Source: a virus
Direction: 5' to 3' (one strand)
Virus record (IMG/VR): IMGVR_UViG_3300045999_007693
Location: 1 to 20,180 of that record
DNA length: 20,180 nucleotides
The notes beneath the pieces were generated by a model. That model searched no databases. It had not been told where the DNA came from and saw nothing but the letters and a program-made list of their open reading frames with translations. Of this stretch, positions 3,114 through 20,180 are shown one piece after another. A program made the position numbers and the translations under genes. Numbering within the stretch: the first letter of the stretch is position 1; the number at the start of each line of letters is the position of its first letter.

Positions 3114-4067
3114 ATGGCCACTAAGCAGGAATACCTAACGCTTGCCCAGGTCACAGCGCTGGTCAAGCTGGCGCGTGACATCAAACAATTCCACAACCTG
3201 CTTTCCGGCGACGGTCCCCCCACCACCGAAGGCCGTCCAGGCGACTGGTACATCAACACCCGCACCGCCGAGCTGTACGGCCCCCGCACCAGCACCGGCT
3301 GGAACGACAGCCCCCTGGCACTAGCCGGCCGAGCCCGCAACTCCGAACTACTAATCAACGGCAACTTAAGCACCGAAACCGCCAACAACGGAGGCGGCGG
3401 TGGAGGAGGCGAAGGCGGCGCCACCATCGCCATCGGCACCGTCACAACTGGCGACGCTGGCACTTCCGCCACAGTCACCAACGTCGGCACATCCAGTGCC
3501 GCCATCCTGAACTTCGTCATCCCTCGCGGCTCCACCGGCCAGACCGGCCCCGCCGGCTCAACAGGCGCTACCGGAGCCACGGGAGCCACCGGAGCCACAG
3601 GCCCCGCCGGCCCGACTGGAGCGACTGGTCCCCAAGGTCCCCAGGGTGAAACCGGCCCTCAAGGTCCACAAGGCACCACCGGCCCCCAAGGTGCAACCGG
3701 CCCTCAGGGCGAAACAGGTTTAACCGGCCCTACTGGCCCCAAGGGCGACAAAGGCGATAAGGGCGACACCGGCGAGCAAGGCCCTCAAGGTCTCACTGGC
3801 GCCACCGGCCCCGCTGGTTCCAACGCCAGCGTCACCGCCGGCACCGGCATCACGGTCTCCAGCGGCGTCGTCTCCCTCGCCGCCTCCTTCTATACAACCA
3901 ACCAATACATCCAAGCCCCCACCGGCACCACCGAACAGCGCCCTGGAACACCCGCCACCGGCATGATTCGCTTCAACACAACTGCCGGCTGCTTCGAGGG
4001 CTACACCGGCAGCGCCTGGGTAAATCTCTCGCCCGCCACCGTCGACGACGTTGGGGCGACCATTTAA
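3114..4067 (+). CDS. Collagen-like virion protein
   Basis: This 317-residue protein has four parts. Residues 1-95 hold a helix and a [15 protein letters not shown] segment, common in phage fibre proteins to mark a short 'parameter' strand unit. Residues 100-138 form the strand unit that often precedes phage collagen repeats ([13 protein letters not shown], then NFVIPRG). Residues 139-237 are 33 unbroken Gly-X-Y triplets. Residues 238-317 are a small globular end with [20 protein letters not shown], as seen at the tips of tail fibres. The repeats should make a trimeric triple helix. It begins 3 bases after the portal gene and precedes the scaffold, so it more likely decorates the head or neck than the tail tip. 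That placement is inferred from gene order only. Confidence 0.75.
3528..3824 (+). repeat. Gly-X-Y (collagen-like) coding repeat, 33 triplets
   Basis: Each 9-base unit encodes Gly-X-Y. Threonine is frequent in the Y position (GAT, GPT, GET), as in bacterial and phage collagens that lack hydroxyproline. GDKGDKGDT near the end gives a charged patch of the kind that stabilises triple helices. The codons are varied, so this is not a pure DNA tandem repeat. Confidence 0.9.
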
Positions 4068-8713: not shown

Positions 8714-11014
8714 GTGGCCAACTACAGCGTAGACATTGAATTAGCCGTAAAAGGTCAAGGACAACTTAGAGCGCTTGAGCAGCAAATAAATTCTATTGAA
8801 CAAGCCGCAAGAAAAATAAGAACTATTGAAGTCAGTGGAGCAACACGTTTAACAACTAGCGAACTTGAAAAACAAGCAGAACTGTACAAAAAGTCAGGTG
8901 CGACTAGACGCGAGGCGCTCCTGTTAGCCAACCGAGAACTCGAAACTGAAAGAAAAATAAACGAAGTCCTCGATAAAAGAACAGCACTACAAGAACAACA
9001 GAAAAAATCCAGCCAAAGAGCAGAGAGCCTTGCACTTGGCGCAGGTTTCCCTTTGCTGTTTGGCGGTGGTGCAGGCGCGGTGGCTGGCAGTATCGCCGGG
9101 TCGTTTGTTGGTAGCGGTTTCGGAGGTCAGATTTTAGGCAGCGCCATCGGTCAATCCATAGATCAAGCCATCCAAAAAGCAGCCCAACTCGGGTCCGCTC
9201 TACAGAGCGTAAGTCTTACTGCTCTGGAGGAGAGTGGTTACAGAGTAAACAGCACCCTTACAACTCAAGTAGGAATACTGAAACAGATCGGTGATATTCG
9301 TGGGGCTCAAATTGCAATCGAAGAAGATATTTTACGCAAAACAGGTGCCATCCCAGGTACCATCGGAGGCATTACTGATGCCGTCAATATCCTTAACACA
9401 GCTTGGGCCGATTTTACAACAGCTGTATCCACGCTTCTAGGAATAGTAGGGTCACCGTTTGCTGCCGCACTCGGGGCGCTAATAAACGCTGTAAACGTAC
9501 TTATCAAAGGTATAAACGTAATACTTTCCTCTGTAGGCGCTGTACTTAAAAGCGCCGGAGAACTCGTTGTAAAGTTTATCGCTGGAGACGACGCGGTTCG
9601 GCGCATAAACGACGGACTGAAAGATAACAATCGCGAACTGGAGCAAGCTCGTGTTTTGTTCGCTGACATTCTTGCCGCATCTAACGCCGAAATTTTATTA
9701 AACAAACAGTTAATACAGATTGAAAAACAGCGGACAACAGGACGCACAGAAGCCGACAAACTACGAAATACCCAGCTGGATCTGGAAGCAGAAAAAACAC
9801 GTATAAACGCAAAATTTGATAATCAACGCATTGAAATAAATAAAAAGCTGACTGAAAACAACAAGCAACTTGTTGATGAGCGGCTGCGACAAAATGAAGT
9901 CCTACGTAGACAAAGTTTAGAACTCGCGAACATTCAAAATACACGGGCTCAAGCAGTTATTGTTGCTACTGAGCAGGAGAGAAGAGACCGCGAAGTAGCT
10001 CAGAACTTAGAACGACAGCGTAAAGAGCTGGAGCGAATTGCCAGGTTACGCGTACAACAGTTGTCGGATGCTCAAGATAACTATGTCCAAGCATCAGCAA
10101 GTTTGGAAGTTGCAGCAGCTAGCACCAACGAAGAACGAATTATCGCTGAATATAACAAAGCACGTGTTCAAAGAATGCAAACATTTAGAGACCTGTTTAG
10201 TAAGTCTTTAAGCGATCAAGAACGAGCTACTCATATTGAAACCATGCGTATGCAAATTATGGAAGCAGAGTTAAATCTAGTCAGAGCGCTTAATGCAGAG
10301 GAAGAGGATGCAGCAGCTAAAACCTTGGAGAGTGTTTCAAAGCTATCCCAGGGCTACGTCGCTGGCATAAGCGCTTTAACTGAATTAAACAGACAACAGG
10401 CACAACAACGAGTGCTAGCTGAAGGCATCGCTGGAACAATAGGCCAGACTATGACATCAGCTTTCCAAGCACTAATCATCGGTGCTGAAGGATTTAACGC
10501 AAGCCTGCAAGGTATTGCGTCCGGTGTACTTATTGAAATTGCTAACCAGCTTCTCCGCATATTTGTTATTGAGCAAGCCATATCCGGTATTAGATCATTT
10601 TTGTCACCAATAACCGGGGCAGGTGTACCGAGTTACGCCTCGGGTAAGGTCGCTACAAACGCTTTCGGGCTTAGCACCGGCGGCTTTGGTGGACCTTCTG
10701 TAGCCGGCAATCCACTCGGAGCCTTCTTTGGTGGAACGTTCGGAACTCGCGCAGCCGGCGGTCCAGTTTCCGCCGGATCTCCCTATCTAGTCGGTGAACG
10801 CGGCCCAGAACTCTTTATGCCACGGACCAGTGGCAGCATCTACCCCAGTGATGCCCTTGGCATGAGCGGCGCTAATGTAGTAGTAAACGTCGATGCAAGC
10901 GGTTCCAGCGTGCAAGGTAACCAGCCCGATGCCACTGCCCTGGGACGTGTTGTTGGCGCTGCTGTCCAGGCAGAATTGATCAAGCAGAAGCGTCCCGGAG
11001 GCTTGCTGGCGTAA
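8714..11014 (+). CDS. Tape measure protein
   Basis: This 766-residue protein sets tail length and fills the tail tube until DNA release. It has a coiled-coil start (residues 4-103), then a Gly/Ala-rich hydrophobic stretch (about 104-150, GAGFPLLFGGGAGAVAGSI). A second hydrophobic region follows at about 235-280, then a long charged coiled coil (about 290-540). It ends in a Gly-rich domain with AAGGPVSAGSPYLVGERGPE, the usual end of lambda-like tape measures. At about 1.5 angstroms per residue the tail would be near 115 nm. The GTG 8714 start lacks a Shine-Dalgarno site. Bases 8714 to about 10600 are AT-rich (two 60-base samples at 37% and 30% GC) with ATA, AGA and TTA codons, but the end after about 10600 returns to about 65%, a sign of mosaic origin. 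Confidence 0.9.
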   Translation: MANYSVDIELAVKGQGQLRALEQQINSIEQAARKIRTIEVSGATRLTTSELEKQAELYKKSGATRREALLLANRELETERKINEVLDKRTALQEQQKKSSQRAESLALGAGFPLLFGGGAGAVAGSIAGSFVGSGFGGQILGSAIGQSIDQAIQKAAQLGSALQSVSLTALEESGYRVNSTLTTQVGILKQIGDIRGAQIAIEEDILRKTGAIPGTIGGITDAVNILNTAWADFTTAVSTLLGIVGSPFAAALGALINAVNVLIKGINVILSSVGAVLKSAGELVVKFIAGDDAVRRINDGLKDNNRELEQARVLFADILAASNAEILLNKQLIQIEKQRTTGRTEADKLRNTQLDLEAEKTRINAKFDNQRIEINKKLTENNKQLVDERLRQNEVLRRQSLELANIQNTRAQAVIVATEQERRDREVAQNLERQRKELERIARLRVQQLSDAQDNYVQASASLEVAAASTNEERIIAEYNKARVQRMQTFRDLFSKSLSDQERATHIETMRMQIMEAELNLVRALNAEEEDAAAKTLESVSKLSQGYVAGISALTELNRQQAQQRVLAEGIAGTIGQTMTSAFQALIIGAEGFNASLQGIASGVLIEIANQLLRIFVIEQAISGIRSFLSPITGAGVPSYASGKVATNAFGLSTGGFGGPSVAGNPLGAFFGGTFGTRAAGGPVSAGSPYLVGERGPELFMPRTSGSIYPSDALGMSGANVVVNVDASGSSVQGNQPDATALGRVVGAAVQAELIKQKRPGGLLA

Positions 11015-11355
11015 TGGCTACTTTCCCCGCACTAACCCCGTCATACGGCGCCCAAAAAACCAGCCAACCATCAGTCCGTAACGTCAAATTCGGCGACGGT
11101 TACAGCCAGCGTTTGCGCTTCGGTCTCAACCAGGACGCAAAGCAGTGGGACCTAACTTGGCAAAACATAAGCGAGACAAATGCCGACACAATCGAAACCT
11201 TCTTAGAAGCCAGAGCTGGCGCAGAGTCCTTTGACTGGACACCTCCCGACTCCGCAACGTCCTACAAATGGATCTGTCAGCAGTGGAGCAAAACAATACC
11301 TTACGTAAACCGGGCCACAATTACCGCAACTTTTGTGCAGGTATTTGAGCCATGA
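11014..11355 (+). CDS. M: Minor tail protein M-like
   Basis: This 113-residue protein is close in length to lambda gpM (about 109). The family pattern is visible: FPALTPSYGA, then VRNVKFGDGYSQRLRFGLN, where 'fgdGy.qr...G' is the hallmark, then WDLTWQNIS, a helix (ADTIETFLEA) and the end TITATFVQVFEP. It should form part of the ring at the lower end of the tail tube. ATG 11014 overlaps the tape measure stop by one base (TAATG), and the next gene overlaps it by 4 bases, so translation of the tail-tip genes is likely coupled. Confidence 0.85.
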   Translation: MATFPALTPSYGAQKTSQPSVRNVKFGDGYSQRLRFGLNQDAKQWDLTWQNISETNADTIETFLEARAGAESFDWTPPDSATSYKWICQQWSKTIPYVNRATITATFVQVFEP

Positions 11356-12920
11356 GCGAAATGTTCAAGGAGCTACTTAGCTCCAATCCTTACGCGATCA
11401 TTGAATTATTCGAGCTGCACTTGGATCTTGATTTGCACGGCAGTGCGGAGGTTGTGCGTTTTCACGCTGGCGTCAATAAGAAAACACCAGCGGGCGATAT
11501 TTACTGGCAGGGCGAACCATACCAGCCGCTGCCCATTGAAGCCGAGGGATTTGAGTACAACGGCAACGGCCAGCTTCCGCGTCCACGTATCCGCATCTCC
11601 AACTTGCTTGGCAGCATCTCGGCATTGCTGCTTGGCGTCAATGAGATCACACCCGGCAACGACCTGACTGGCGCCAAGCTGATTCGTATTCGCACGCTCA
11701 GCCGTTTCCTCGATCCGGTCAACTTCACTGGCGGCACCAATCCTTACGGCACACCAGCGAACGAGGAAATGCCGCGTGAGGTATATTACATCGACCGCAA
11801 ATCAGTTGAAAACCGCGAGATCGTCGAGTTCGAGCTTGCCGCCGTCTTCGACCTAGCTGGTGTGCGCGCACCGAAGCGTCAAGTCATCGCCAACATCTGC
11901 CAGTGGAAATACCGCAGTGCTGAATGTGGTTACACAGGGACAAATTACTTTGACGAATACGACAATCCCCTTGGCGCGACTCCTGCCGTCAACTTTGCCG
12001 CCAGTGCTTTTGGCAACCAGCTAACCGCTGGCGAGACACTCAGCAATGGCGATTACATCACATCCGCCAACGGCTGGTACAAAGGCATCATGCAAAACGA
12101 CGGCAACTTTGTCGTCTACAAAAAGCCTGGTCCGCAAGGCATCCCTGGCAACAATGCCGTCTGGGCAACCAACACTGTTCGGGGCAGTGGGTCGTACCAG
12201 CTCAGGATGCAAACCGACGGCAACGTTGTCCTCTATAGAAATGGCAGCGAAGTGCTGTGGGCAAGCAACACCGCTTCCACAGCCTCCCCCACTACCGTCT
12301 CGTTTATTGACTGGTATCCCACCGATGTAAGCGTTGGCCGCAGCGGCGGCTTTGGCTACCAAATGGTCGGATCCTCCCCTAGCGCACTGGGACAAACCCA
12401 GTCTGTAACTTACACCTTCACGATCAGCACCGGCAAGACAATCCAGTTGACGATTGGATTTGATTCGTTTGAAGTACCTGCCGGCCACTACTCCGGCCAG
12501 TCCTTTGGCTGGGGCGCCAGCTCCTACACAATCGTCAGCTCGACGGGCATCTGGTATCTAAACGAAGTCTTCAATGCCACCCGCACCCTCAGCGACGGCA
12601 ACCCGTTCAAGTACAACAACCCCGACGTGGGCACGTTGACATCTGCCGGTCCTCAACTTCAAGTCACAGGCGTTACCGGCAACGTAAACAACCGCTTGAC
12701 CCTCAACGCTGACGGCGGCTTGACCGTTTACACCAACACAAACACCGTCTTGTACGCCTCTGGCTACAGCAACAGCAACGAACCTTTGGTGACCACTGGC
12801 ACGGTCGACCCACTGCGGGATGTATGCGGCAAGCGCATCAGCTCCTGCAAAAAGCGTTTCGGCGATTATGCCGACCTACCGTTTGGGTCATTCCCCAGCG
12901 CCGGCACGTTCTACGGATGA
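11352..12920 (+). CDS. L: Tail-tip protein L-like with inserted B-lectin module
   Basis: At 522 residues this is more than twice the length of lambda gpL (about 232). Residues 1-204 and 488-522 make up the L-like part: FHAGVNKKTPAGDIYWQG, then PRPRIRISNL, VYYIDRKSVENREIVEFELA and finally LPFGSFPSAGTFYG. Exactly four cysteines exist: 183, 192, 492 and 499. The spacings C-x8-C and C-x6-C match those I recall for the four ligands of the iron-sulfur cluster in lambda gpL. Between the second and third cysteine lie 299 residues instead of about 22. The insert (about 205-487) contains a bulb-type lectin. The frame is open throughout, so this is one protein. It overlaps gene M by 4 bases and gene K by 4 (ATGA). 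Confidence 0.9.
   Translation: MSEMFKELLSSNPYAIIELFELHLDLDLHGSAEVVRFHAGVNKKTPAGDIYWQGEPYQPLPIEAEGFEYNGNGQLPRPRIRISNLLGSISALLLGVNEITPGNDLTGAKLIRIRTLSRFLDPVNFTGGTNPYGTPANEEMPREVYYIDRKSVENREIVEFELAAVFDLAGVRAPKRQVIANICQWKYRSAECGYTGTNYFDEYDNPLGATPAVNFAASAFGNQLTAGETLSNGDYITSANGWYKGIMQNDGNFVVYKKPGPQGIPGNNAVWATNTVRGSGSYQLRMQTDGNVVLYRNGSEVLWASNTASTASPTTVSFIDWYPTDVSVGRSGGFGYQMVGSSPSALGQTQSVTYTFTISTGKTIQLTIGFDSFEVPAGHYSGQSFGWGASSYTIVSSTGIWYLNEVFNATRTLSDGNPFKYNNPDVGTLTSAGPQLQVTGVTGNVNNRLTLNADGGLTVYTNTNTVLYASGYSNSNEPLVTTGTVDPLRDVCGKRISSCKKRFGDYADLPFGSFPSAGTFYG
11964..12812 (+). other. Insert in the L-like protein: bulb-type (mannose-binding-like) lectin lobes
   Basis: This stretch encodes residues 205-487 of the L-like protein. 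Lobe 1 has Q248-x-D250-x-N252-x-V254-x-Y256 and then VWATNT. Lobe 2 has Q287-x-D289-x-N291-x-V293-x-Y295 and then VLWASNT. Both are perfect copies of the Q-x-D-x-N-x-V-x-Y motif that binds mannose in plant and bacterial bulb lectins. A third lobe, about 140 residues later, has D454 and Y460 and then VLYAS, but lost the Q and N. Residues about 312-403 between lobes 2 and 3 look like a separate strand-rich domain. Sugar binding is inferred from the motifs, not shown. Confidence 0.85.
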
Positions 12921-13627
12921 CCCACTGGAAACACGACGCACAGGAGCACGCGCTACAGGAAGCGCCACGGGAGGCGTGCGGCTTGGTGTTGGTTGTCAAA
13001 GGGCGCGAGCGTTATTGGCCATGCAAAAACCTTGCCGCCGACCAAGACTTTTTTGTCATTGACCCAGAGGACTATGCCGCCGCCGAGGATGCTGGCGAAA
13101 TAACGGCAATCTTCCACAGCCACCCGCGCAGTCCCGCGCAACCCAGTGAAGCCGACCGCATGTCCTGCGAAAAGTCAGGCTTGCCTTGGTTCATCTGCAA
13201 TCCCGGCACCCAGATGTGGTGCGAGATCAAGCCATCCGGCTACACAGCATCGCTGATTGGACGGCAGTGGGTGTGGGGCGTCAGCGACTGTTGGACGCTG
13301 GTGCGCGACTGGTACAAGGAAGAGCTGGATCTTGACCTACCGGATTGGGATCGCCCGGCATCCATGATGGACTTCCACCAGGCGCCCATGTTCGAGGAAT
13401 GTTTTGCCGAGGCTGGCTTCGTGGACATGGGACTGGAGCTGCCTGAATACGGCGATGCAATCCTGATGCGCCTTGATGGATCACCGGGTCTCAACCACGT
13501 TGGTGTGTACCTTGGCGACCAACTGTTTCTGCATCACTTGCGGGGTCGACTCAGTAGCCGCGACCTGTGGGGTGGCTACTATCAGAAGAGCACAGGCTTG
13601 ATTGTTCGGCATACCAGCAGGTGTTGA
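12917..13627 (+). CDS. K: Tail-tip peptidase K-like: MPN/JAMM plus NlpC/P60
   Basis: This is a 236-residue protein with two domains. Residues 1-110 hold a JAMM-type metallopeptidase motif with Glu19 in PREACG and H67-S-H69-x7-S77-x2-D80, complete for zinc binding. Residues 115-236 form an NlpC/P60 cysteine peptidase with C125 in GVSDCWTLVRDWY and H194 in GLNHVGVYLG. Lambda gpK has the same order; such proteins process tail parts or cut cell-wall peptides during entry. ATG 12917 overlaps the stop of the L-like gene by 4 bases (ATGA). A longer frame upstream to 12824 exists, but would run far into the L gene and is rejected. Both active sites look intact. Confidence 0.9.
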   Translation: MTHWKHDAQEHALQEAPREACGLVLVVKGRERYWPCKNLAADQDFFVIDPEDYAAAEDAGEITAIFHSHPRSPAQPSEADRMSCEKSGLPWFICNPGTQMWCEIKPSGYTASLIGRQWVWGVSDCWTLVRDWYKEELDLDLPDWDRPASMMDFHQAPMFEECFAEAGFVDMGLELPEYGDAILMRLDGSPGLNHVGVYLGDQLFLHHLRGRLSSRDLWGGYYQKSTGLIVRHTSRC

Positions 13628-13628
13628 A

Positions 13629-14279
13629 ATGTTCCGGGTCATCAAGGTCTACGGCAAGCTGGCAAAGCACCTGGGACAGCGGAGTTTCAAGGCTGCGGTG
13701 AAGTCACCGGCTGAGGCAATCCGTTTCCTGCTGGCCAATTTCCCCAGCCTTCGTGGCGTGATGAGCGAAGGTGAATACCAAGTAACTGTTGGCCGGCTTG
13801 GTTTGCAGCTTGCAGATGAGCCAATGCAACTGCACTACCCAGCCGCACCACAAGAAGCCATCAGGATCGTGCCCGTCGTTGGTGGTGCTGGCAGCGGCAC
13901 TGGCCAAATTTTGGCTGGCGTCGGTTTGATTGCAGCCGCGATCCTGCTTGGTCCAGTAGGCGGTGGCTTCCTTGGGCTTGGCGCCGGATTAAGCGGAACG
14001 GCCGGCGGCGTTGCTGTTTCCGGCCTTGTTGGTGGCGCGTTTGCCTCTGCTATTGGCGCAGTAGGTGCAGCCTTGGTACTTGGCGGTGTCGCCCAACTTT
14101 TGACTCCGACCTCAACAATCAGTTCTGGAACTGACAGCGCAACCGATCCGCGTCGATCGTATAGCTTTAGCGGCATCCAAAACGTCAGCCGTCAAGGTGT
14201 ACCAGTTCCTGTTATTTACGGCGAAGTGTTAACCGGCAGCGTGATTATTTCTGCCGGCATCAACACCGAAGAAGTTTGA
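13629..14279 (+). CDS. I: Tail assembly protein I-like
   Basis: This 216-residue protein is near the length of lambda gpI (about 223). The first 80 residues look like a ubiquitin-like fold (FRVIKVYGKLAKHLGQRSF, then SPAEAIRFLLANFPSL). Residues about 85-155 are a Gly/Ala-rich hydrophobic stretch with the look of membrane segments (AGVGLIAAAILLGPVGGGF, then SAIGAVGAALVLGGVAQLL). The end holds RQGVPVPVIYGEVLTGS, the usual last part. Lambda gpI is needed for tail assembly but not found in the virion. ATG 13629 begins 1 base after the K stop. A TTG at 13602 in frame is an unlikely start. Confidence 0.85.
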   Translation: MFRVIKVYGKLAKHLGQRSFKAAVKSPAEAIRFLLANFPSLRGVMSEGEYQVTVGRLGLQLADEPMQLHYPAAPQEAIRIVPVVGGAGSGTGQILAGVGLIAAAILLGPVGGGFLGLGAGLSGTAGGVAVSGLVGGAFASAIGAVGAALVLGGVAQLLTPTSTISSGTDSATDPRRSYSFSGIQNVSRQGVPVPVIYGEVLTGSVIISAGINTEEV

Positions 14280-14280
14280 T

Positions 14281-17200
14281 ATGGAAAAGCGTCTGATTGC
14301 TGGTGCAGGTGGCGGCGGCGGTGGAGGCGGCGGCAAGGGCGGTGGTGGCGGTGGCGGTGGTTCGGCCAATGTCACTCGCGACAACCTTGACTCCCGCCAA
14401 GTTGCACGCATTATCGACCTTTTAGGTGAAGGCGAAATCGAGGGATTCCCTTCCGCCAAGGATTACGCCGTTGGCACGACGAACTACAACGTCGCAATGT
14501 TGAAGGATGTTTATCTCAACAACACACCAATTCTCCGTGGCGATGCCGACCCAACCAACGCCCAGGCATCCGATTATAACTTCGACATCACAAACGCTGT
14601 TTTCGAGTTCCGCACTGGCACGCAAAATCAGACCTACACCCAAAACGTAGGTGACGCCAACCAAAGCACGACGCTGGTCAATACAAAAGTCACGCAGGCG
14701 TCAGCGGTAACCAGATCCATCACTGACACCGATGTCAATGCAGTTCGCGTAACGATTGGCACGCCCGCACTGCAGAAATTTAAGAACAACGGCGACGTCG
14801 AGGGCGCTGTAATCCAATACCGCATCCAAACCTCATACAGCGGTGGTCCGTTTTCAACTGTTATTGAGCAGGAAATTCGCGGCCGTACCGCTGACTTATA
14901 TCAACGCATCCACCGCATTGATCTAACCGCAGCACCGCCTGTTGACATTCGCGTGGTGCGTGTCAATGCTGACGCTGCACCATCGGGCAATGAAACCGAA
15001 AACAGCGACTTCTATTGGTACGACTACACCGAAAAAATTAACGCCAAAACGACATACCCAAATAGTGCACTATTTGCCGTCAAGCTCAATGCCGAACAGT
15101 TCAGCAGTATCCCGTCGCGTGCTTACAAGATTCGCGGCATCAAGGTACGCATCCCCAACAATGCAACCGTCAACCCACAAAACGGTCGCCTGATTTACGC
15201 AGGTACCTGGAACGGCACGTTTGCTGCAGCGCAATGGACAACTGATCCCGCTTGGATCCTGTGGGATTTGCTGGTCAGTAAGCGTTACGGCTTTGGCGAT
15301 CACGTCGACGCGGCACAACTCGACAAGTGGAGCTTTCTAGCCGCCAGTCAGTATTGCGCGGAGGTTGTCGCTGATGGCAAAGGTGGTCAGGAACCGCGCT
15401 TCGCCTGCAACGTTGTCATACAGACGCAAGAAGAAGCGTTCAAACTGATCAACGATCTGTGCTCAGTGTTCCGTGCAATGCCGTTCTGGTCGGCTGGTGC
15501 ACTGGAAGTTTCGCAGGATCGCCCGCAGGATTATTCCTACATCTTTAATCAAACCAACGTCACCGAGGAAGGCTTTACCTACAGCGGCAGCAGCCTCAAA
15601 ACTCGCCACACCGTTGCAGTGGTGCAGTATTTCGACATGGACCTGCGCGACCTTGCTTATGAGGTCGTCGAAGACAAGGAAGGCATCGACAAGTTTGGCG
15701 TTGTCAAAATCGAGGTTTCTGCCTTTGCCTGCACCAGCCAAGGACAAGCGCGGCGTGTTGGTGAGTGGCTGCTTTACACCGAACAAAACGAGACTGAAAT
15801 CGTCAGCTTCAGCACTGACATTGCCGCCGGCATCACAGTCCGCCCTGGCGACCTGATCAAGATCGGCGATCCAGTTCGTGCTGGTGTGATGCGCTCTGGC
15901 CGTTGCACCACCGGATCAACCACCACCCGCGTCCGCCTAGATCGCACAGACGTTGATCTGTTCCCCAGCGGTCCGCCTGCCAGTTTCACCTTTAACGTCC
16001 TGCTGCCTAGCGGTCAGCTTGCCATCAACGAAGCCTCCTCGCTGGTGGGTAACTCTGTCTTTACCGGCAGCACCTTGACCGAGGCACCTGCTGCTGGTGC
16101 GCCGTGGACGATTGGCACAACAGAAGTCCAGATGTCGACTTGGCGCGTGCTGAACGTCAAGGAAACAGATGGCGCAACCTATGACATCACCGCCGTTGCT
16201 TACAACTCCACTAAATACGACTACGTGGAGCGGGATGTTCCACTCGGCACCCGCGACGTTTCTGACCTAAACGAACCGCCGCTGGCACCAACCAACTTGA
16301 TTGTCAACGAGGTTCTCTACGAAAGCAACGGCCAGGTGCTGGCCAAGTTGATTGTTGGCTGGCGTGCTGCTGAGCGTGCCCTTACCTATGAGGTGCGCTA
16401 CCGCTACAACAACGGCAACTGGGTCACCACCAACGTCCGCTCTGTTGACTTTGAGATCCAGAACAGTGACGTGGGGCGCTACGAAATCGAGGTAACCGCC
16501 GTTGGTGCGATCAACAGCAAGCGATCCACTGCTGCCACCCAGACCTATGACGCCATTGGCAAAACGGCACCCCCGGAAACCATCCCGGATCTGTTCATCG
16601 CCCCGATTGATGAGCACACCGCTGAGCTGTACTGGCCACAGGCGGTTGACCTTGACGTGAAGATCGGCGGCAAAGTCCGCATCCGCCACACCCCGCTGAC
16701 CGACGTAACCGCCACATGGGGGCGCTCGAACGACATCGTGCCTGCAGTTGCCGGCAGCAGCACCCGCAAAATCGTCCCACTGCTGGAGGGCACCTACTTC
16801 ATCCGTGCCGTTGACTCCCTCGGCAACGAATCTGCCGATACGGCCAGCGTGGTGGTTGATCTGCCCGCACCACAGGATCTGTTTTTGGTGCAGGAATACC
16901 GCGAGGAGGACAACAGTCCGCCCTTTAACGGCGCCGCCACTGACATGTACTACAACGAGACCGAGGTCGGTCTGGTGCTGTCAGCGGATGAGTTAATTGA
17001 TGACATGGCCACCGACAACAACTGGGACGGCTTGGGTCTGATCGACTACATCGGTGGTGCGGTTAGCGAGGGCGAGTACCAGTTCGCTGAAACCCTTGAC
17101 CTAGGCGCTGTCTACGACTTGGGTCTGCAGCAAATCCTCAAGACACGCTCCTACGAACCCGGCAACACTTGGGATGAGCGCCTGGAGTTGATCGACCTGT

Positions 17201-17667
17201 GGGACGACATCGACGGCGACGACCTTGGTGCGGCCAACTGCCAACTGTTTGTCCGTACAACATCCGACAACCCATCAAGCACCCCGACTTGGCGCGACTG
17301 GCAGCCATTTGTCAACAACAACCACCGTGGTCGCGGCTTCCAGTTCAAGTTGGTGGCCACCAGCAGCAACCCAGCGCAGAACGTGGTGGTGGAGGAGCTG
17401 GGCGTCAAGGCTAACTTTGAGCGCCGCACCGAACAGCAGCGCAACCTCAGCAGTGCTGCTGCAGCTTATAGCGTGACCTTCCCAACCGCTTTCTATGGCA
17501 CACCAAGCGTGGGCATCACGGCGCAGGATATGGCCACCGGCGACTACTTCACCCTTTCCAGTATTAGCCGCACCGGATTCACAGTGACCTTCAGAAACAG
17601 TGGAGGTAGCATGGTGAGTAAGACCTTTGACTACCAAGCCGTTGGCCACGGCAGGCAGATCACCTAA
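14281..17667 (+). CDS. J: Central tail-tip/host specificity protein J-like
   Basis: This 1128-residue protein (lambda gpJ has about 1132) should form the trimeric tail-tip hub and carry receptor specificity. Residues 10-27 are a Gly tract. Next comes DNLDSRQVARIIDLLGEGEI, matching the lambda start, then FEFRTGTQNQ, VNTKVTQASAVTRSITD, the segment YPNSALFAVKLNAEQF, IRGIKVRIPNN, GTWNGTFAAAQWTTDPAWIL and FGDHVDAAQLDKWSF, all easy to align with gpJ by eye. Two fibronectin-III-like domains follow (about 665-757 and 765-860). The final 70 residues are strand-rich (AYSVTFPTAFYGTPSVGI to FDYQAVGHG) and resemble small sugar-binding or fibre-end domains. The last part, where receptor contact is expected, does not resemble lambda. 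It begins 1 base after gene I. Confidence 0.92.
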   Translation: MEKRLIAGAGGGGGGGGGKGGGGGGGGSANVTRDNLDSRQVARIIDLLGEGEIEGFPSAKDYAVGTTNYNVAMLKDVYLNNTPILRGDADPTNAQASDYNFDITNAVFEFRTGTQNQTYTQNVGDANQSTTLVNTKVTQASAVTRSITDTDVNAVRVTIGTPALQKFKNNGDVEGAVIQYRIQTSYSGGPFSTVIEQEIRGRTADLYQRIHRIDLTAAPPVDIRVVRVNADAAPSGNETENSDFYWYDYTEKINAKTTYPNSALFAVKLNAEQFSSIPSRAYKIRGIKVRIPNNATVNPQNGRLIYAGTWNGTFAAAQWTTDPAWILWDLLVSKRYGFGDHVDAAQLDKWSFLAASQYCAEVVADGKGGQEPRFACNVVIQTQEEAFKLINDLCSVFRAMPFWSAGALEVSQDRPQDYSYIFNQTNVTEEGFTYSGSSLKTRHTVAVVQYFDMDLRDLAYEVVEDKEGIDKFGVVKIEVSAFACTSQGQARRVGEWLLYTEQNETEIVSFSTDIAAGITVRPGDLIKIGDPVRAGVMRSGRCTTGSTTTRVRLDRTDVDLFPSGPPASFTFNVLLPSGQLAINEASSLVGNSVFTGSTLTEAPAAGAPWTIGTTEVQMSTWRVLNVKETDGATYDITAVAYNSTKYDYVERDVPLGTRDVSDLNEPPLAPTNLIVNEVLYESNGQVLAKLIVGWRAAERALTYEVRYRYNNGNWVTTNVRSVDFEIQNSDVGRYEIEVTAVGAINSKRSTAATQTYDAIGKTAPPETIPDLFIAPIDEHTAELYWPQAVDLDVKIGGKVRIRHTPLTDVTATWGRSNDIVPAVAGSSTRKIVPLLEGTYFIRAVDSLGNESADTASVVVDLPAPQDLFLVQEYREEDNSPPFNGAATDMYYNETEVGLVLSADELIDDMATDNNWDGLGLIDYIGGAVSEGEYQFAETLDLGAVYDLGLQQILKTRSYEPGNTWDERLELIDLWDDIDGDDLGAANCQLFVRTTSDNPSSTPTWRDWQPFVNNNHRGRGFQFKLVATSSNPAQNVVVEELGVKANFERRTEQQRNLSSAAAAYSVTFPTAFYGTPSVGITAQDMATGDYFTLSSISRTGFTVTFRNSGGSMVSKTFDYQAVGHGRQIT
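14308..14361 (+). repeat. Poly-glycine coding tract at the start of J
   Basis: Nine Gly codons, one Lys and eight Gly codons (GGN) follow each other. The third bases vary (GGT, GGC, GGA), but GGCGGCGG stretches could still slip in steps of three bases and change the tract length without breaking the frame. Flexible Gly starts are common in J-like proteins, though usually shorter. Confidence 0.85.
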
Positions 17668-18479: not shown

Positions 18480-20180
18480 ATGGGAGTTCCCGGAAACGCA
18501 AACCCGCTGCTTCTGCGGACTGTTACTGCTGCCGCTACAGGGATTAGTAGATCACTACGCTTCAATGCTGGCGACAGTGCCTACTTGTCCAGAACAATGA
18601 GTTCTGCCAGCACAACATACACCTTTGCTGCATGGGTCAAAAGATCTACATTCCCCGGCTACCAATACCTGTTCAGTAGCGGAAGCGGGGGCTTTGCTTT
18701 TTTAGACACTACAAGCACCATCTACGTCTACTCCCCTGCTGGAGGTGCGCAGGAAACCACGGCTGTATTCCGCGACCCTTCGGCTTGGTACCACATTGTC
18801 TTTTCGGTCAATAGTCTGTCCACAACTGTGTACGTAAACAACGTCGCAGTGAAGACAGGGGCTACCGCAGCAGCACTTTCGACCTCTACAAACGGCACGT
18901 CCATTGGCCGGTACGACGGTGGCGGATCACCTGATTACTACTTCAACGGCTACCTCGCCGACATCTACTTCATCGACGGCCAAGCGCTGACCCCCAGCAG
19001 CTTCACCGAAACCGACGCCACCACCGGCCAGCTCATACCCAAGGCATACAGCGGCAGCTACGGCACTAACGGAGCACATCTTGAGTTCGCGGACAACAGT
19101 GCAGCAACCGCGACCACATTAGGGAAGGACACTTCTGGCAACGGTAATAACTGGACGCCGAATAATCTTTCCGTCACCGCTGGTGCAGGCAACGACTCCC
19201 TCGTAGACGTTCCCACTAACGGGGCGCAGACGGATACGGGCGTGGGTGGGGAAGTGCGGGGGAACTACTGCGTTCTCAACGCTCTAGATACAACAGCGAC
19301 TCTATCAAACGGAAACCTCGATGTAACTAGAAGTGCTGCTACTGCCCACCTTGGAACCAGAGCAACCTTTGGCATTACTTCGGGTAAATGGTACTGGGAA
19401 GCAACATACGGCGCAGGAAATACCGCTGGCAGCAGCGCTATCGGAGTCGCCCTTACGACTTGGGCGCAAAACGATTATTGTGGGCAAACAGGTTCTTGGT
19501 CTTACCACGCCAATGGCGATAAATACTTAAATGGAGCAGCAGGGACATCATACGGCGCAACGTACACAACTGGAGATGTAATTGGTATTGCTTTTGACGC
19601 TGATGCAGGGACAATCACTGCATACAAAAACGGGGCTTCTCAAGGGCAGCTAGTAAGTGGTTTAACTGCTGGTCCTTATTTCCCGGCGTCTTCTGTTTAT
19701 AACGCATCTTCGTGGACTTATAACTTCGGCCAACGCGCCTTCGCCTACACCGCTCCCAGCGGCTTCAAGGCGCTCTGCACAGCAAACCTGCCCGCCCCAT
19801 CAGTCACAAAGGGTTCTAGTGCGATGGACGTGGCACTGTGGACAGGAAATAACGTCAACAATCGTCAAATTACTGGCTTGGGATTTTCGCCAGATCTTGT
19901 ATGGATCAAGTCAAGGTCCAGCGCCGCCTTCCATAATCTTACGGACATCGTTCGTGGCACGGGTTTAATTATTCAATCAAACACGACCTCTAGCGAGCAA
20001 AATTCATCTTCGCATAACGGTGCTGTTGGCGCTTTTAACAGTGACGGATTTACCCTCACCCAAGGTCTTAGTCTTGATGACGTAAATGCCAGCGCAACCA
20101 CCTATGTCGGCTGGGCGTTTGACGGAGGATCGAGCACCGTCACGAACACAGCAGGCTCCATCTCTAGTCAGGTGCGAGCT
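18480..20180 (+). CDS. Large fibre/adhesin with LamG-like and SPRY-like domains (3' end cut off by window)
   Basis: From ATG 18480 the frame stays open for 567 codons to the window edge, so it is partial. Residues about 22-176 are a concanavalin/LamG-like domain (SLRFNAGDSAYLSR, FAAWVKRSTF, WYHIVFSVNSLSTTVYVN, GYLADIYFIDGQALTPSSF). Residues about 275-424 are SPRY-like (GKWYWEATYG, IGIAFDADAGTITAYKNG, YFPASSVYN). From about 448 comes a phage unit with ALWTGNNVNNRQITGLGF then SPDLVWIKSRS. This combination is common in putative tail fibres of marine phages, and the folds often bind glycans or proteins on the host. It lies 3 bases after the previous fibre gene and is somewhat less GC-rich than the head genes. 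Confidence 0.8.
   Translation, partial: MGVPGNANPLLLRTVTAAATGISRSLRFNAGDSAYLSRTMSSASTTYTFAAWVKRSTFPGYQYLFSSGSGGFAFLDTTSTIYVYSPAGGAQETTAVFRDPSAWYHIVFSVNSLSTTVYVNNVAVKTGATAAALSTSTNGTSIGRYDGGGSPDYYFNGYLADIYFIDGQALTPSSFTETDATTGQLIPKAYSGSYGTNGAHLEFADNSAATATTLGKDTSGNGNNWTPNNLSVTAGAGNDSLVDVPTNGAQTDTGVGGEVRGNYCVLNALDTTATLSNGNLDVTRSAATAHLGTRATFGITSGKWYWEATYGAGNTAGSSAIGVALTTWAQNDYCGQTGSWSYHANGDKYLNGAAGTSYGATYTTGDVIGIAFDADAGTITAYKNGASQGQLVSGLTAGPYFPASSVYNASSWTYNFGQRAFAYTAPSGFKALCTANLPAPSVTKGSSAMDVALWTGNNVNNRQITGLGFSPDLVWIKSRSSAAFHNLTDIVRGTGLIIQSNTTSSEQNSSSHNGAVGAFNSDGFTLTQGLSLDDVNASATTYVGWAFDGGSSTVTNTAGSISSQVRA

Follow-up and report, generated by a model that had tools for sequence, protein, structure and literature searches.

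A predicted bulb-type lectin inserted within the iron-sulfur domain of a lambda gpL-like phage tail-tip protein

The gpL-like gene and its tail-module neighbours

The DNA analysed here (hereafter, the window) comprises positions 1 to 20,180 of the IMG/VR virus record IMGVR_UViG_3300045999_007693. The tail genes around the gpL-like gene of the window follow the lambda order M-L-K-I-J (Table 1), and the stop codon of this gene and the start codon of the gpK-like gene overlap as ATGA (in the sequence at 12900-12935). The product scores above the curated cut-offs of both PF05100 (195.7 bits, cut-off 25) and TIGR01600 (214.2 bits, cut-off 70.75) and matches phrog_18 at 1.4e-84; Phage_tail_L, TIGR01600 and phrog_18 each match it in two separate stretches. 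In comparisons with the three closest relatives, dN/dS was 0.02-0.03 for the flanks of the insert described below and 0.06-0.09 for the insert itself, so that the open reading frame represents a real gene, and the insert values, being below 1, give no sign of positive selection.

Table 1. Predicted genes and domains at the tail-tip locus (window coordinates).
Feature	Coordinates	Strand	Evidence
gpM-like minor tail protein (distal tail)	11014..11355	+	Phage_min_tail 1.2e-28
gpL-like tail-tip (hub) gene	11352..12920	+	522 aa; Phage_tail_L 7.2e-58, TIGR01600 1.3e-63; dN/dS 0.02-0.09 against closest relatives
HDI beta-sandwich domain (last tail ring), aa 1-166	11352..11849	+	alignment with lambda gpL; pLDDT of the AF2 model mostly 75-91; best Foldseek match 8iyk_L
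Iron-sulfur domain, first half, aa 174-202; Cys183 (11898-11900), Cys192 (11925-11927)	11871..11957	+	cysteines conserved in 91/91; 5' cassette crossover at codons 195-203
Lectin lobes 1 and 2, aa 222-309	12015..12278	+	phmmer to gastrodianin, pyocin L1, GNA; Foldseek
Nested beta domain, aa ~310-441 (~130 aa)	12279..12674	+	pLDDT 92-98; exchanged, together with lobe 3, in L228/L232
Lectin lobe 3, aa ~442-475; motif at 452-460 degenerate (NADGGLTVY)	12675..12776	+	Foldseek gastrodianin alignment over 256 columns
Iron-sulfur domain, second half, aa 490-522; Cys492 (12825-12827), Cys499 (12846-12848)	12819..12917	+	F2-pyocin hub and lambda gpL alignments; 3' crossover in or beyond
gpK-like JAB + NlpC/P60 protein	12917..13627	+	Prok-JAB, NLPC_P60
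gpI-like tail assembly protein	13602..14279	+	phrog_32 3.5e-45
gpJ-like central tail fibre protein	14281..17667	+	phrog_31 8.9e-202, FNIII-A_GpJ 3.2e-30

The iron-sulfur domain in two parts

An earlier reading of this DNA without database searches (the sequence-only reading) had called the protein lambda L-like, an identity that the Phage_tail_L match and the gene order support, and had counted exactly four cysteines in the spacing of the lambda gpL ligands. The count is correct: the only cysteines of the 522-aa protein are those at 183, 192, 492 and 499, in the arrangement C-x8-C, 299 residues, C-x6-C. The spacing given for lambda was also right, the cluster ligands of lambda gpL being Cys173, Cys182, Cys205 and Cys212 (PMC10721106). 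The four window cysteines align with these ligands, and the residues between ligands number 8, 22 and 6 in lambda gpL versus 8, 299 and 6 in the window gpL. All four cysteine columns are invariant across the 91 aligned gpLs, insert-bearing and plain, and the surroundings, CQWKYR..C.YTG and DVCGKR..SCK.RFG, are near-invariant among the insert-bearing proteins. The two matched parts adjoin in the F2-pyocin hub (query 12-207 on chain residues 11-193, query 486-519 on 195-228), and the iron-sulfur domain is found in uninterrupted form in the plain gpLs of cyanophages S-H1 and KBS-S-2A. An iron-sulfur cluster is presumably present in the window gpL. In lambda, gpL is trimeric and has its iron-binding domain in an outer position; the role of the cluster on the tip surface was described as still to be characterised (PMC10721106).

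Anatomy and predicted structure of the insert

Two perfect QxDxNxVxY motifs noted in the sequence-only reading lie at 248-256 (QNDGNFVVY) and 287-295 (QTDGNVVLY). At least one such motif arises in only 0.035% of shuffles of the window gpL and in none of 60 insert-free gpLs. In sequence comparisons with the PDB, the two lobes carrying these motifs match gastrodianin (2e-14), pyocin L2 (3e-13) and snowdrop agglutinin (3e-12). The motif of a third lobe is degenerate in the window's subclade and intact in distant relatives, 10 of 31 representatives keeping it; the beta domain is therefore nested between lobes 2 and 3. At least one perfect motif is retained in 27 of the 31 insert-bearing representatives, in lobes that differ by lineage; five carry three perfect motifs, and four have none intact.

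In a first AF2 model, built with 14 close sequences, only the insert was modelled well and the gpL part badly. With 91 diverse sequences, the mean pLDDT was 83, with values mostly of 84-98 in the insert and about 59-72 in the cysteine-bearing segments; the arrangement of the domains is uncertain, given a pTM of 0.51. The best PDB match of this model in Foldseek was lambda gpL (8iyk_L, 6e-15), followed by T1 gpL, and mannose-type lectins were matched as well. Gastrodianin (1xd5_A, 112 residues) was aligned over 256 columns spanning all three lobes (target TM 0.87), so that the lectin appears to run around the nested domain. Taken together, the sequence matches and the model establish a predicted three-lobed bulb-type (beta-prism II) lectin fold for the insert. 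The nested domain had no match in Pfam or PHROG, and nothing convincing was found among plasmids or in the PDB; its single PDB match, 6xi1, was a weak repeat match and was rejected as spurious.

The proposal of a lectin between the cysteine pairs therefore stands as to the fold, but the lectin accounts for only about half of the insert, the degenerate third lobe and the nested domain having been overlooked. The B_lectin profile of Pfam, suggested as a check on the lectin region, does match the window gpL, but at 23.5 bits, under the gathering score of 32.4 (29.3 bits in the relative L232); the score is lowered because the nested domain splits the lectin. Lectins of the bulb-type fold bind mannose, and pyocin L1, which has the same fold, binds D-rhamnose (4led). 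The mannose motif is kept in lobes 1 and 2; given the binding of D-rhamnose by this fold, the "mannose-type" specificity named in the sequence-only reading is only one candidate.

Spread and origin of the insert

Relatives of gpL were collected by scans of viral contigs, yielding a sample biased towards the queries. In this sample, the 149 distinct gpLs with both cysteine pairs fall into 71 with a short linker and 78 with the lectin insert, in which the motif ends are separated by 286-318 residues; there are no intermediates. The 78 insert-bearing proteins come from many metagenomes; on their number and the low dN/dS, an assembly or reading-frame artefact was rejected as the source of the insert. 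In a tree of gpL with the insert removed, all 28 representatives that carry it group in a single clade (SH-aLRT 99) and one change suffices, which indicates that the lectin insert was gained once. When the insert was compared by tblastn with 50,697 phage records, there were no matches; a mobile lectin found elsewhere in phages was rejected on this search, which identified no donor.

Cyanophages S-2L, S-H1, KBS-S-2A and MED4-184/P-HS2, along with the marine virus particle AG-345-A17, have the closest structural genes among isolates. A psbA-type gene, a PurZ-type gene and tRNAs are all absent from the contigs of the relatives, and the host is likely cyanobacterial, as judged only from the cyanophage-like structural genes.

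One apparent gpL variant, on contig L065 of a metagenome-assembled genome (a species-representative genome), was discarded as a chimera in which a phage gpL, 97% identical up to residue ~303, is joined near position 2300 to unrelated sequence; the non-phage part reads like an outer-membrane receptor.

Exchange of the insert as a cassette

Across the set of full-length relatives, mean identity is 85-89% in the flanks of the insert and 61-66% within it. Individual pairs are more extreme: flank and insert identities are 98.2% and 54.9% between the window (L001) and L013 (99.1% and 54.9% between the window-type L003 and L013), 99.1% and 64.2% between L038 and L039, and 100% and 76.4% between L228 and L232. 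The pattern is reversed for L013 and L021, with 85.4% in the flanks and 98.2% in the insert. At the DNA level, the window and L013 are 92-94% identical in the N-domain of gpL; most values within the insert are 46-65%, and most of those across K, I and J are 92-100%, apart from a stretch around 14555-15054 where identity falls to 82-88%. At informative sites, L013 is window-like in the 5' flank (135 of 152, 135:17), L021-like in the insert (314 of 333, 314:19) and again window-like in gene K (154 of 162, 154:8; Fisher 3e-78 and 8e-95). These comparisons indicate that the insert is exchanged whole, as a cassette, among close relatives, and that the L013 insert came from a third lineage, of the L021 type.

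The 5' crossover lies just past Cys192, within an exact match of 22 nt. The 3' crossover is less well defined, and falls between codon ~494, where there is a 20-nt exact match (codons 494-499), and the start of gene K. L228 and L232 share 96-100% identity over the first ~900 nt of the gene and diverge from the end of lobe 2 onwards, the nested domain and lobe 3 having been exchanged.

The tape measure and gpM genes (8714-11355) are also replaced between relatives that are otherwise near-identical, L013 among them, with a break at the start of gpL.

Proposed function and alternatives

In a lambda-like tail tip, the product of this gene would be the gpL-type hub subunit; it retains the HDI domain and the two-part iron-sulfur domain, and its linker between the cysteine pairs holds a three-lobed lectin, itself carrying a beta domain between lobes 2 and 3. 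Because the lambda iron-sulfur domain occupies the outer face of the tip, the insert, looped out between the two halves of this domain, most likely projects outward, in three copies per tip. There it would grip a surface glycan of a cyanobacterial host (O-antigen, capsule or exopolysaccharide), ahead of engagement by gpJ and the fibres. The conserved codons flanking the insert would serve as recombination seams, either for the insert as a whole or for the nested domain with lobe 3, and exchange between phages would fit a part that sets surface specificity. The insert is thus probably an outward-displayed accessory adhesin on a gpL-type hub, exchanged as a surface-specificity cassette; this is the best reading because one to three pockets are intact in 27 of the 31 representatives and because of the cassette exchange. 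The sequences show the order of the domains, the conserved cysteines, a predicted lectin fold, one origin of the insert and its exchange as a cassette; we infer the cluster, the outward position in the window gpL, the sugar binding, the ligand, the host and the effect on host range.

Alternatively, the lectin fold could be a structural decoration that stabilises the tip or acts as a spacer and binds no sugar, as might be suggested by the four representatives with no intact motif and by the degenerate lobe 3 of the window's subclade. We consider this unlikely, because the great majority of the representatives have a perfect five-residue motif in one lobe or more, the lobes varying by lineage, and because cassette exchange suits a specificity element better than a spacer. 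The insert might instead bind glycans other than receptors, such as extracellular polysaccharide in the water, and retain the phage near its hosts, with receptor specificity residing in the nested domain and in gpJ or the fibres; nothing specific speaks against this, all its structural predictions being common to the adhesin explanation, and we regard it as improbable. That the insert abolished the iron-sulfur cluster, leaving the cysteines to hold another metal or to form disulfides, might be argued from the 299 residues that part the cysteine pairs and from the moderate confidence of the model there. This, too, appears quite improbable, given the near-invariance of the four cysteines and their surroundings in insert-bearing gpLs and the fact that a domain of ~80 aa at the same site leaves the cluster in place in the hubs of RcGTA and roseophage R4C (PMC7296036, PMC10276861). 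Finally, although the L013-type and L039-type recombinants were each found in a single metagenome assembly and contig L065 is truly chimeric, it is extremely improbable that the insert or its exchange is an assembly chimera, considering the number and spread of the distinct insert-bearing gpLs, their dN/dS well below 1, the recurrence of the L232 arrangement in a second metagenome (L237, for the stretch that was compared), and the shortness, for assembler joins, of the exact matches near the seams between the window and the donor-type L021, taken here as stand-ins for the true parents in the sample.

Read as an accessory adhesin, the insert is a likely determinant of host range in these probable cyanophages, which are uncultured and widespread; it also brings in a nested beta domain of no known family.

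Comparison with known systems

The window gpL resembles lambda gpL, T1 gpL and the F2-pyocin hub, relatives within PF05100, in its HDI domain and C-terminal four-cysteine domain, and lambda also in gene order. Unlike it, these proteins have a short linker between the cysteine pairs and neither a lectin nor a nested domain.

A sugar-binding-type domain at the cysteine-pair linker is already known. In the RcGTA hub g13, ion-binding segments 143-167 and 250-263 flank an "oligosaccharide-binding" domain at 168-249 (PMC7296036), and in the R4C hub, segments 142-161 and 244-266 flank a putative saccharide-binding domain at 162-243 (PMC10276861); the R4C cysteines in these segments are 147, 157, 244 and 251. 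These hubs differ from the window gpL in belonging to another family (PF09931 + PF09356) and in carrying a domain of another type, which has been likened to an insertion domain of the LKA1 tailspike, with no bulb-type lectin and no nested domain. At E<=1, the window gpL has no profile match to PF09931 or PF09356; the C-termini of its relatives match PF09356 weakly (0.008-0.018), and in a profile comparison with the RcGTA/R4C hub family the Cys3-Cys4 segment alone was aligned.

With gastrodianin, snowdrop agglutinin, pyocins L1 and L2 and putidacin, the insert shares the three-lobed beta-prism II fold and the QxDxNxVxY pockets; in contrast to these lectins, it is embedded in a tail protein, is split between lobes 2 and 3 by the nested domain and has one degenerate lobe. 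"Evolved" Dit proteins and other siphophage tail-tip insertions are likewise described as placing carbohydrate-binding modules within a conserved tail-tip scaffold, but in another scaffold protein and at another insertion site. The sequence-only reading, which knew of no lectin in this position, was thus preceded by the RcGTA and R4C hubs as regards the site; a bulb-type lectin there, the nested domain and the cassette exchange are, as far as we searched the open-access literature, undescribed.

A broader reading, which we put forward tentatively as a serious possibility, is that the linker between the iron-sulfur halves may be a general plug-in slot, the four-cysteine site closing around any insert and the conserved codons providing seams for the swapping of whole adhesion modules that leaves the tip unbroken. 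Its contents would be the lectin here, an oligosaccharide-binding-type domain in RcGTA and R4C, and an insert of ~110 residues in a gammaproteobacterial gpL. If so, the surface iron-sulfur cluster would gain a role as a structural clasp: modules inserted between the cluster ligands and swapped as cassettes suggest a clasp for interchangeable adhesins.

Further gpL variants and other features of the window

The gammaproteobacterial gpL (L379, 1-1110, minus strand) carries its different insert between Cys2 and Cys3, and this insert has no Pfam match. The HDI loop after "YLDA.NF" is a second insertion hot-spot, with an insert of ~430 aa in L067 (5001-6974, Thermomonas haemolytica) and of ~190 aa in L378 (80-1348); in both gpLs, the iron-sulfur domain is intact and uninterrupted. 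The gpL of Marine virus AG-345-A17 (L052, 3001-3975), the nearest isolate-type relative in its structural genes (portal segment 83% and capsid 73% identical), lacks the iron-sulfur domain and has an insert of ~130 aa in the HDI loop, after "YLDAVNF", that by eye looks cupredoxin-like. The MED4-184 gpL (L054) likewise lacks the iron-sulfur domain. A 73-kb viral contig (G006, the contig of L211) contains two different gpL genes (22611-23306 and 66508-67221), reflecting either two phages joined or a duplicated tail module.

In the window, the C-terminus of the gpJ-like protein (aa 1064-1112) has a sub-threshold match to an H-type lectin (1.1e-4) and may give the tip a second part that binds sugar. 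A collagen-like Gly-x-y protein is encoded at 3114-4067, with the portal on one side and, on the other, the genes that lead to the major capsid protein. Two similar 138-aa proteins are encoded in tandem (188-604 and 662-1078), possibly a duplicated tail-tube-like gene. A probable fibre gene runs from 18481 to the end of the window at 20180; in the corresponding place, the relative L375 (16048-18429) encodes SPRY and DUF7483 domains.
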